NCBI RefSeq assembly: GCF_014647455.2
Contig: NZ_BMPF01000002.1
Span: forward strand, 372,001-436,000
Source of the DNA: Halarchaeum grantii
Lineage (GTDB): Archaea > Halobacteriota > Halobacteria > Halobacteriales > Halobacteriaceae
Direction of reading: 5' to 3'
Length of the DNA stretch: 64,000 bases
Positions 33,541 through 36,669 of the stretch are shown here, piece after piece. Under the pieces are notes generated by a model that ran no database searches, was not told the DNA's origin, and saw nothing but the letters and a program-made list of their open reading frames with translations. Numbering within the stretch: the first letter of the stretch is position 1; every line of letters begins with the position of its first letter. Both the position numbers and the translations under genes were made by a program.

Positions 33541-33613
33541 CGGGGACGGCGGCCGAACCGGAGGGGACAGCCGAGTCGCGCGTCGAGCGCGGAGCCGCCG
33601 CCGTTCGGAACGG

Positions 33614-33635
33614 ATGGGCCCTGGCGGATTTGAAC
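33614..33635. repeat. attL-like copy of the tRNA-Met 3' end
   Basis: A 22-bp sequence identical to 35764-35785, the 3' end (T arm and acceptor) of the tRNA-Met gene. It marks the far boundary of the AT-rich integrated element at about 33636-35763. Tyrosine integrases commonly use tRNA 3' ends in this way, and a truncated integrase gene lies just inside. Confidence 0.85.
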
Positions 33636-33751
33636 GCAAGGTTTCAAACGCCAACGGACTGTCCTCAATCGCCGGACTGCTCCCGTTCAAACGCCACTCA
33701 TCGAACCAATCGCCCCGATTTCGCGTCTCGGTGCTCTGCGGAGAACAAACA

Positions 33752-34195
33752 ATGGCAGAACTCAAACCCATCGCTCCCGCCGAAGCGAAGGAAATGTATC
33801 TCGCACAACGGCGTGGCGAAGTCGCAGAATCGACACTCCAAGCCCACCACTATCGGCTCAAGCCGTTCGTCCAGTGGTGTGAATCGACGAGTCTGACGAA
33901 CCCCAATGAACTCTCTGCTCGTGACCTCCACAAATACCGGTTCCATCGGAAAGAGGAAGACGACTTGAACAAAGTAACACTCCGAACCCAACTCTCGGCT
34001 ATCCGAGTATTCGTGAAGTTTCTCGAATCCATCGACGGCGTTGAGCAAGGCCTCCACGACAATTTCGTCCTCACCGGAAACGTGTACGACGAATTCACAT
34101 CGGTCGAGAGTAGGTCAACAGTCGTCCGAGAGGTGCAGGACAACTACTCCCCAAACGGAAGAAATCCTCTTTCACAGGCCAGCAGAAGCCTGTGA
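33752..34195 (+). pseudogene. Tyrosine integrase, N-terminal fragment
   Basis: ATG 33752 opens 147 codons. The first 115 or so (MAELKPIAPAEAKEMYLAQR..., then ALHKYRF-like LHKYRFHRKEEDD and LRTQLSAIRVFVKFLESID) match the SAM-like core-binding domain of haloarchaeal XerC/phage integrases. The sequence then runs into unrelated residues and stops. The catalytic domain with the R...HxxR...Y set is missing, evidently deleted. It sits 116 bp inside the left attachment repeat, where an integrase belongs, and is more AT-rich than the host genes. Confidence 0.75.
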
Positions 34196-34203
34196 GGTGA
34201 CAG

Positions 34204-34560
34204 GGGTTCGACGGAAGGCAGGCAGATGCGACTCCCGAGCAGGTACGTCGGACGATACGCGCCTATGTCAAGACCGACAGTAAGGATGTAGACGGAGAGG
34301 TACTCCGCCTGTGGCGAGGCAGTGACGAGGGACGACCGTCTGCATCGGAGGCGGATATGGCCTTCGTGAAACAACTCTACTACTGGTGTAAGGGCGACCA
34401 GCAGTTGATGGACGAGCGTTTCCGAGCCTCTGGTCGGATGCGTCCGAAGTGGGACGAAGTACACTCCTCTGACGGAGCCACGTATGGGGAAAGGACCATA
34501 CGGAACGTCTGTCGAACGAACAGCGAGACGTTCGGATGGAGGTACGTGGAGATGAAGTAG
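34204..34560 (+). pseudogene. Plasmid/virus primase, C-terminal fragment
   Basis: A frame open from about 34204 to the TAG at 34558-34560, with its first ATG only at 34357. It reads EVLRLWRGSDEGRPSASEAD, AFVKQLYYWCKGDQQLMDE, FRASGRMRPKWDE and TYGERTI. This pattern is familiar from the C-terminal helical part of primase/polymerase proteins of haloarchaeal plasmids and proviruses. The catalytic N-terminal part is absent; a stop codon closes the frame upstream. A deletion joined it to the integrase remnant. Confidence 0.55.
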
Positions 34561-34755: not shown

Positions 34756-35727
34756 GTGGCTGAACTATCTGAGGACGAAATCAAATGCCAACTCCAACAG
34801 ATGGACCCATACGAGTTTGAGGAGTTGGTAGCAGAGATATGGGAATTACAGGGATACGAAACGACAGTTCGTAAAGGAAGTGGTGATAGAGGAATTGATG
34901 TTGAAGCCGAAATCCAAACTCCGGTTCCTCAGAAAGTCCTGATACAGGCTAAGCGGTACTCAGAGGGAAACAAGATCGGGTCGGAGGAAGTGAGGAAATA
35001 CGCGACACTTTACCAACAAGTTTCGGATACTGATACTGTGGTCATAGTCACGACGGGTGATTTTACTGCAGAAGCACGGAGGTTGGCTGATGACTTAAGA
35101 GTTAAAATTGTCGACAGGTATTCGTTTGCAAAGGAGGTCGCGAACAATCAACGGAGTTTGTCCAAAGACTATTTCGACAAACAAACAGTTCAAAGGGTCG
35201 ACAAAGCCAGTAGTGAACGAAAGAAAAAGACAACGTCAAAAACAGCCACACACAGAAATAAATCGGTATCTAAATCAAAAGAATCACACGGTAAAGAATT
35301 GGGAAAATGGAATATCTTTGCAGCCAGTGCCATACTCGCGATACCTGCGAGTATCTTGGTTGCGTTTGTAGTGTATATACCTAAACAAATCACTTTTCCA
35401 AATATTGGGCTTTTAGATTATTTTATATTTTGTTATTTTATATCATTGTGGTTTTGCATATTGAGCTTGGGCCCGAAGATTGCCCGAACTAAAGCTAAAC
35501 TCGCAATACCCACGACAGGCTTGGTTTTCTTATTTATTGGTATCCCATTGTTACTTATTGGTACATATTTATCCCCGTATATTAAATTAGAAGATTTAGG
35601 CGCATATCCAGTATCCCTGGTAGCCATAATGTCATATTGTTTATCGTATCTCTATTGGGAATGGGAGTGGTATAAGCACGATTCTCAATCAGAATACCAA
35701 AATGACCGTTTTTTACCAGACAAGTAG
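34756..35727 (+). CDS. Mrr-type nuclease with four membrane helices
   Basis: A 323-residue protein beginning at GTG, about 30 bp after a GGTTAAGT TATA-like box. Residues 15-115 form a Mrr-type restriction endonuclease core: GSGDRGIDVE with D48, and VLIQAKRY with Q64 and K66, the PD-(D/E)xK active site. A basic Lys/Ser/Thr-rich linker (about 140-180) leads to four hydrophobic helices (about 188-211, 220-240, 250-275, 290-312). Codon use and base content are AT-rich, unlike the host. It is the only intact gene of the element. Such nuclease-membrane fusions suggest defence against DNA entering the cell; this is inference. Confidence 0.75.
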   Translation: MAELSEDEIKCQLQQMDPYEFEELVAEIWELQGYETTVRKGSGDRGIDVEAEIQTPVPQKVLIQAKRYSEGNKIGSEEVRKYATLYQQVSDTDTVVIVTTGDFTAEARRLADDLRVKIVDRYSFAKEVANNQRSLSKDYFDKQTVQRVDKASSERKKKTTSKTATHRNKSVSKSKESHGKELGKWNIFAASAILAIPASILVAFVVYIPKQITFPNIGLLDYFIFCYFISLWFCILSLGPKIARTKAKLAIPTTGLVFLFIGIPLLLIGTYLSPYIKLEDLGAYPVSLVAIMSYCLSYLYWEWEWYKHDSQSEYQNDRFLPDK

Positions 35728-35763
35728 GGTTTATCAGCCGACCCTCAATCAACCAGAGATCGA

Positions 35764-35785
35764 ATGGGCCCTGGCGGATTTGAAC
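35764..35785. repeat. attR-like repeat within tRNA-Met
   Basis: The second copy of the 22-bp direct repeat; it covers the discriminator base, acceptor arm and part of the T arm of the tRNA-Met gene on the minus strand. One further matching stretch of 2 bases lies outside it with one mismatch. Confidence 0.85.
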
Positions 35786-35888
35786 CACCGATCACCCGGT
35801 GTCTCATTCCAACAGAGAGAGTTTATTCCATCTCCGTCTAGTTGGAAATATGAGCCGGGCGCTGTAAGCCAGACTGAGCTAAGGGCCC
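35765..35888 (-). tRNA. tRNA-Met(CAT), elongator, with intron
   Basis: Acceptor GGGCCCT pairs with AGGGCCC; the T arm is GGTGG-TTCAAAT-CCGCC; the anticodon stem CCCGG/CCGGG flanks loop CTCATA-A with anticodon CAT. A 48-nt intron (complement of 35801-35848) lies after position 37, bounded by TTCCAAC and GTTGGAA arms that can form the bulge-helix-bulge. No CCA is encoded. An intron in elongator tRNA-Met is known in Haloferax. The 13-22 pair of the D stem is mismatched. The 3' end is the attachment site of the element at 33636-35785. Confidence 0.9.
35801..35848 (-). other. tRNA-Met intron
   Basis: The 48 nt between A37 and A38 of the tRNA. Complementary stretches TTCCAAC near the start and GTTGGAA near the end bring the splice sites together in the way expected for the archaeal splicing endonuclease. 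Confidence 0.8.
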
Positions 35889-35934
35889 ACGTACACTCTG
35901 AGATACTGGGCCCGCTGCCTTTAGCGTGTCGGGA

Positions 35935-36669
35935 TCAAGTGACCACGACATCACGCTCACGCAACGCGGCTTCAAGGTCTGCGATACAGCGCACGACCGC
36001 GACGTCTTGTTCGGCGTCGCGTAGATGCGCGATTTTCTTCGCGAATCCATGGGCATTAGGGCGCGTTCCCTCGGCATAGCCGTCAACCTCGACCCAGAGA
36101 TCGACATCGGAGAGGTAGAAGTCACCACGCCACCGAGTACCCTCAACCTCTGGGTGAACGTCGTACGCGAGTCCGGCGTCGTGGAGGTATGTCGCGACGG
36201 CGAGTTCGTACTGGCTGTCAAGTCGCACACCAGATGGGCCACGGCACGGCGTTCCGTGTCTCTCACCGGCAAGGATATCTGCGGCGTCACAGGCCGCACG
36301 CCATGACCCGAAATGCTCCTTGACCACGCTGGTCGGGAACTCGCCGTGCTCGTCATACTGGCGGTGCGTGAGAGCATCTGACTCAACTACACTGATGACA
36401 CGTCGAAGATCGTGGCGCATGTCTCGTTCGTCGCTGGCGTCGTAGCTCCCGACCGCCGTCCGACTGAGGCCGGCATCGGCGAGGAGGTCATTCCAGCCGC
36501 CGTTGAGGTGCTTGTAGATAGTCGAGAGACAGGGCAAGCGGTCATCGCTACTGGCCTCGGCAGTGGTCGGCGACCGACCGAGGTCCGCAGCGAGTGCGCG
36601 CACGCCTCGCACGAGGTCGTCATAGGTGTACATCGGCTTCTCGGTGTGTTGGTTTCCGTAGAACGGCAT
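35935..36669 (-). CDS. Homing-endonuclease-like nuclease with HNH-associated repeats
   Basis: A 244-residue protein, ATG 36669 (ATG 36633 also possible). Two helical repeats are visible: DLVRGVRALAADLGRSPTTA...LNGGWNDLLADAGL, and a second ending EHFGSWRAACDAADI. They resemble the 'homing endonuclease associated repeat' that reads DNA. The C-terminal half, from LDSQYELAVATYL to WVEVDGY, fits the VSR/DUF559-like PD-(D/E)xK nuclease fold (D, D and E-x-D pattern in WRGDFYLSDVDLWVEVDG). It lies just upstream of the intron-containing tRNA-Met, 46 bp away, on the same strand. A free-standing homing nuclease or a patch-repair-like enzyme are both possible. Confidence 0.6.
   Translation of the reverse strand: MPFYGNQHTEKPMYTYDDLVRGVRALAADLGRSPTTAEASSDDRLPCLSTIYKHLNGGWNDLLADAGLSRTAVGSYDASDERDMRHDLRRVISVVESDALTHRQYDEHGEFPTSVVKEHFGSWRAACDAADILAGERHGTPCRGPSGVRLDSQYELAVATYLHDAGLAYDVHPEVEGTRWRGDFYLSDVDLWVEVDGYAEGTRPNAHGFAKKIAHLRDAEQDVAVVRCIADLEAALRERDVVVT

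Follow-up and report, generated by a model that had tools for sequence, protein, structure and literature searches.

Nucleases held at the membrane and directed against incoming DNA are represented in bacteria by SNIPE (PD-lambda-1; Nature 2026). In SNIPE the anchor keeps a GIY-YIG nuclease off the host DNA and its removal is toxic, the cleavage of phage DNA during injection is demonstrated experimentally, and the anchoring region is variable, with one or two helices in 66% of the homologues (PMC13190303). In Zorya, the Mrr-like nuclease ZorD is brought to a membrane motor. For COG4741, an archaeal family of PD-(D/E)xK proteins with a membrane helix, Kosinski 2005 suggested a possible role in guarding the cell against foreign DNA from the membrane (PMC1189080). 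Because of these three precedents, the idea of a membrane nuclease cutting DNA at its entry is not new; it was published for SNIPE (PMC13190303) and proposed for COG4741 (PMC1189080). Searches of an open-licence library turned up no publication on an Mrr form whose C-terminal tails are exchangeable.

The window, i.e. the whole stretch of 64,000 nucleotides analysed from Halarchaeum grantii, contains a gene for an Mrr nuclease with a predicted membrane tail, named here Mrr-TM, with the following features:

34756..35727, + strand: Mrr-TM gene, 323 aa, GTG start, without internal stop; one copy in its own genome
34792..35133, + strand: Mrr nuclease domain, residues 13-126 (Pfam PF04471, conservation across 92 ORFs, structure match)
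35161..35307, + strand: basic linker, residues 136-184 (15 K+R versus 6 D+E; model pLDDT mostly below 50 over residues 143-190)
35308..35667, + strand: hydrophobic tail with predicted helices at residues 185-207, 217-242 and 247-272 (clear) and 284-304 (weak), from hydropathy and model

The profile Mrr_cat (PF04471) matches residues 13-126 with an E-value of 6.1e-25 and 88 bits, about four times the curated cut-off of 21, and on this match the protein is assigned to the Mrr_cat family. A match to the Mrr domain was detected in 217 of the 391 genomes of the class. From these matches, a subset of 92 ORFs was aligned, composed of the better-scoring relatives (drawn from 60 stretches plus some additional loci) after removal of identical ones and including the ORF of the window. 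In this alignment E22, D44 and D48 are conserved in 92/92 sequences, and Q64 and K66 in 91/92. The initial annotation had read a PD-(D/E)xK core from D48, Q64 and K66; the positions are correct and the residues are nearly invariant. The sole ORF without the active-site Gln and Lys, L095, displays His and Thr instead and carries a membrane tail. Compared with its relative L002, the Mrr core shows 69% amino acid identity, a dN of 0.23 with a dS too high for estimate, and differences of 0.26, 0.15 and 0.56 at the three codon positions; at the sequence level, the core is under constraint. The structure prediction suggested by the annotation was realized with AlphaFold2, and the nearest PDB chains to the model are MspJI, AF1548 and AspBHI. 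MspJI and AspBHI are Mrr-type restriction endonucleases, and AF1548 is a protein without known function. At the sequence level, the protein has no match to solved structures at an E-value of 0.01.

The nuclease core fold is thus what is shared with MspJI and AspBHI, its top structural matches. These modification-dependent Mrr-type enzymes carry domains reading modified bases, whereas in the Mrr-TM protein neither a base-reading nor a winged-helix domain was detected with Pfam (E 0.1), and a membrane tail occupies this place. With SNIPE, the protein would share the organization of a single-gene membrane-anchored nuclease facing the cytoplasm (here predicted from hydropathy and charges), with a constant nuclease and a fast-changing anchor. 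SNIPE is nevertheless a bacterial protein combining GIY-YIG and DUF4041 with an N-terminal helix, whereas the archaeal protein combines a PD-(D/E)xK Mrr domain with a C-terminal multi-helix tail; since Pfam reveals neither DUF4041 nor GIY-YIG in it, the Mrr-TM protein is not a SNIPE. The likeness to Zorya is that of an Mrr-like nuclease at the membrane, and the ZorD profile matches the protein with an E-value of 8e-14. ZorD, however, is a helicase-nuclease recruited by a separate ZorAB motor, whereas here the membrane segment belongs to the nuclease itself; no motor protein corresponding to ZorA or ZorB was recognised by Pfam among the 8 ORFs between 29.3 and 39.8 kb. The best PADLOC match is the candidate defence family PDC-S02 (E 7e-16, via the Mrr domain), but the alignment is confined to positions 189-317 of the 334-position profile, towards its C-terminal end. 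No known defence-system genes adjoining Mrr-TM were recognised with Pfam or PADLOC. Finally, COG4741 (T. volcanium TVN1166; PMC1189080) resembles the Mrr-TM protein in being a mostly archaeal family of PD-(D/E)xK nucleases for which a membrane helix and a cytosolic orientation are predicted. Its core, however, is related to YraN, its helix is N-terminal and its motif is E-(V/I)D-E(V/I)K, whereas the Mrr-TM protein has the QxK of an Mrr core and carries its tail at the C-terminus.

Membrane helices were detected by a simple hydropathy rule (mean of at least 1.6 over 19 residues) and not by a trained predictor. The first three helices of the tail display values of 2.48, 1.97 and 2.27, and the fourth only 0.91. 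AlphaFold2, from a thin alignment of 6 rows, draws four tail helices (185-207, 217-242, 247-272 and 284-314) with a low confidence of about 43-64. Given the weak fourth helix and this low-confidence model, three helices are safe and four are plausible; of the four membrane helices initially annotated, three are retained by hydropathy, while the fourth depends on the model. The basic linker of the annotation is confirmed by its excess of Lys and Arg. Its view that the nuclease lies on the inner side of the membrane holds as a prediction, as the protein has a hydrophobic tail and its loop charges would place nuclease and linker on the cytoplasmic side. Among the 49 tailed ORFs of the alignment, the stretch preceding the first helix is more positive than the stretch following it in 33, with 9 ties.

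The tail itself was compared with random sequences generated from its own dinucleotide model. Only 12 of 40000 stay open across its length (139 codons), and at least three such helices are found in 142 of 3000 stop-free sequences; the open frame is therefore unlikely to arise by chance, whereas the hydrophobicity is only mildly unusual for AT-rich DNA. Across the three codon positions the GC content of the tail hardly varies (0.38/0.37/0.36), unlike that of the Mrr part (0.58/0.35/0.46). No relative of the tail was detected at an E-value of 1e-3 in the 380 other genomes of the class, nor at the DNA level in plasmid or phage DNA, and pairwise comparison of its pieces with five near relatives gives only 21-40% identity over 18-56 codons. 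Membership of the large haloarchaeal Mrr tail family was considered and rejected, with a profile-comparison probability of 12% and no pairwise link at an E-value of 1e-3. The absence of relatives, the flat codon-position GC and the weak fourth helix weaken any confident functional claim for this particular tail, and the function of the tail, for which no relative is detectable, is the weakest step of a sequence-based interpretation.

The initial annotation considered that Mrr domains are rarely joined to membrane helices. This does not apply to the haloarchaea, and the fusion as a rarity is rejected: a hydrophobic segment is located behind the domain in 49 of the 92 ORFs, one ORF has such segments solely in front of it, and 42 have none. 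As a check, no hydrophobic windows were found inside the Mrr domain (0/92). The search for homologues of the fused form, also suggested by the annotation, thus recovers common fusions with unrelated tails, which fall into sequence groups of 35 and 8 members and six singletons, including the tail of the window. The nearest Mrr relatives of the protein likewise carry hydrophobic tails. On the tree of the Mrr domain, with support limited by its 126 alignment columns, 12 changes of tail state are counted, of which five or more fall on well-supported branches; shuffled states give a mean of 31. The protein of the window belongs to a well-supported set of 12 sequences, four with a tail and eight without. 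The repeated gain or loss of unrelated tails on the Mrr core is a pattern of interest in itself. Both bacterial plasmid relatives (n=2) are untailed by the same hydropathy rule, a number that says little on bacteria.

Other architectures were observed among the Mrr ORFs. The genome of H. grantii contains three further Mrr_cat matches; the proteins of two of these loci, L136 and L138, end in one hydrophobic helix, and the frame of L138 contains a stop. The ORFs L005 (5830-7995), L004, L028, L037, L054, L061 and L064 encode proteins of 730-780 aa (722 aa in L005), with three membrane helices followed by a C-terminal region of 300-400 aa. In L005, the only one of these ORFs scanned, this region is hardly recognised by Pfam; ORFs of this type are candidate membrane sensor-nucleases. 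In L086 the Mrr domain is followed by eight hydrophobic segments, and in L025 it is preceded by three; these are further ways to join Mrr to the membrane.

The Mrr-TM gene is located in a stretch of 2.15 kb, the remnant of an integrative element bounded by a duplication of the 3' end of a tRNA-Met gene. Its other features are:

33608..33636, no strand: att repeat, distal copy of the tRNA-Met 3' end (direct repeat)
33752..34195, + strand: tyrosine integrase, truncated to 147 aa with only the N-terminal SAM-like domain (PF02899)
34200..34560, + strand: primase scrap (phrog_1829 DNA primase, E 3e-12 over 34357-34557)
35764..35889, - strand: tRNA-Met(CAT) with a 48-nt intron, the integration target (ARAGORN, introns allowed)

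The two copies of the 28-nt direct repeat (33608-33635 and 35758-35785) are 93% identical, share an exact core of 20 nt and are 2150 bp apart; the right copy corresponds to the 3' end of the tRNA-Met(CAT) gene, and the Mrr-TM gene stops 36 nt short of this tRNA gene. The default tRNA scan missed this intron-containing gene, and scans of haloarchaeal DNA should allow introns. The GC content is 41% in the Mrr-TM gene and about 70-74% in the flanking host DNA. Among phage records, the integrase remnant is closest to the betapleolipoviruses HRPV9 (45%), SNJ2 (40%) and HHPV4 (39%); the full-length integrase genes of HRPV9 (1023 nt) and SNJ2 (1050 nt) are more than twice as long, and the catalytic part is missing here. 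SNJ2 integrates at tRNA-Met. The remnant resembles an SNJ2-type, betapleolipovirus-like element by its att repeat at a tRNA gene; its integrase, reduced to the N-terminal 147 aa, is a putative member of the SNJ2 family. It differs by the absence of recognised virion genes (spike, membrane protein, ATPase) between the repeats, where only the integrase remnant, the primase scrap and Mrr-TM were recognised.

In the three same-genus genomes, the tRNA-Met has a single 3' end and the stretches read contain no Mrr-TM (3/3). Vertical inheritance was rejected on this ground, and also because matches at an E-value of 1e-20 reaching past residue 140 were found in 0 of the 25 other genomes of the family. 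From the repeat, the broken integrase and the single tRNA-Met 3' end without Mrr-TM in these three genomes, the unit is read as what is left of a small integrating plasmid or virus, in which Mrr-TM is the only apparently intact gene. The att repeat at a tRNA gene and the integrase remnant also bear out the carriage by a mobile element proposed initially. Just outside the element, between tRNA-Met and tRNA-Asn, the ORF 35935-36669 (- strand) contains two homing-endonuclease-associated repeats (PF18780, E 4e-18), and its C-terminal half is weakly similar to PADLOC PDC-S69 (E 0.001) and to a Holliday resolvase phrog (E 0.005); this ORF may be another nuclease gene.

The three nearest tailed relatives (L142, L002 and L145) all adjoin mobile-element genes. 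At L142, to which L007 belongs (46% over residues 2-222), an intact SNJ2-type integrase is directly upstream on the same strand, and the Mrr-TM gene of this locus is located at a step in GC content, next to a host gene whose product starts as thermosome subunits do. In L002 (Haloferax gibbonsii) a Phage_integrase-domain protein is nearby, and in L145 (the locus of L010) a nearby protein matches Pfam DUF1424, a putative Rep. The stretch of L080, an ORF with one helix, contains a primase-like protein and an SNJ2-type integrase split across two frames. Any overall excess of integrases around tailed Mrr genes is too weak for a claim, and no general adjacency rule is drawn, since integrases of these types are found within 4 kb of 4/48 tailed and 1/42 untailed genes and in 0/30 control stretches. 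No relatives of the nuclease were detected in phage records or in two viral-contig scans, nor was a relative of the N-terminus of the L142 integrase found in viral contigs.

We consider, with a probability of about 0.5, that Mrr-TM encodes a membrane-tethered Mrr-type restriction nuclease, carried as cargo by a small tRNA-Met-integrating element since mostly deleted. Read from the DNA, the locus combines an unbroken set of Mrr active-site residues with a basic linker, three or more hydrophobic helices, an element boundary and a broken integrase; from what is known of the family, we infer a role in defence. The tail would tether the nuclease to the inner membrane face, where it would be kept off the nucleoid and positioned at the point of entry of viral or plasmid DNA, which it would cut. 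The DNA of the cell would be spared by this location, by a base-modification requirement like that of other Mrr-type enzymes, or by the two together. As in SNIPE, the nuclease would be the part that stays constant, while the anchor would change fast and be exchangeable; a SNIPE-like working is plausible. The near-invariant active site, the constraint on the core, the charges, the tails of 49/92 ORFs with their separate sequence groups and 12 changes of state, the mobile-element neighbours of the three nearest tailed relatives and the ZorD and PDC-S02 matches count for this explanation; the tail without relative, its flat codon positions, the weak helix, the broken element, the low-confidence model, the lack of a general integrase adjacency and of recognised defence-system neighbours count against it.

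With the element around it broken, Mrr-TM might itself be a relic, in which an intact Mrr core had its C-terminus replaced by AT-rich junk during the deletion of the element, leaving it inactive. The broken state of the adjoining integrase and primase agrees with such a history, as do the flat codon-position GC of the tail and its lack of relatives; the 139 open codons, rarely reached by the random sequences, do not, and neither do the hydrophobic tails of the nearest Mrr relatives nor the retention of all active-site residues, so that we regard this history as unlikely. Mrr domains act as effectors elsewhere, for instance in the STAND proteins of P4 satellites (PMC9122126), and some tailed Mrr proteins, such as L005 (722 aa), have a sizeable additional region at the C-terminus that would suit a sensor. 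An abortive effector, whose tail senses the disturbance of the membrane in infection and whose Mrr domain then cuts the host DNA and kills the cell, would be consistent with these cases, but the protein of the window has no sensor domain beyond its helices and its inter-helix loops are short; this explanation is just as improbable as that of a relic. The location of the gene within an element, and that of the L142 gene immediately after an intact integrase, would also suit a nuclease that cuts rival elements or superinfecting relatives for the benefit of the mobile element and not for host defence, and the related virus HHPV4 carries a restriction endonuclease (PMC10101028). The biochemistry would however be the same as in the preferred reading, the beneficiary alone being different, and the absence of nuclease relatives from the phage records (0) and from both viral-contig scans speaks against it; we give it the least credit of all.

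Beyond this locus, the preferred reading of a membrane-tethered restriction nuclease leads to a broader and more tentative proposal, that haloarchaea repeatedly evolved a counterpart of SNIPE, in which Mrr with exchangeable, unrelated anchors cuts viral or plasmid DNA at entry, spares self by place alone and is spread by small integrative elements; we hold this doubtful, though better placed than the alternatives above. Swapping or removing the tail could test it, given that one nuclease core has repeatedly acquired unrelated anchors. If the proposal is true, archaea too would distinguish self from non-self by confining a nuclease to the membrane, a strategy demonstrated to date for one bacterial protein of the GIY-YIG type; their nuclease would have an unrelated fold, and the strategy would be widespread among them.
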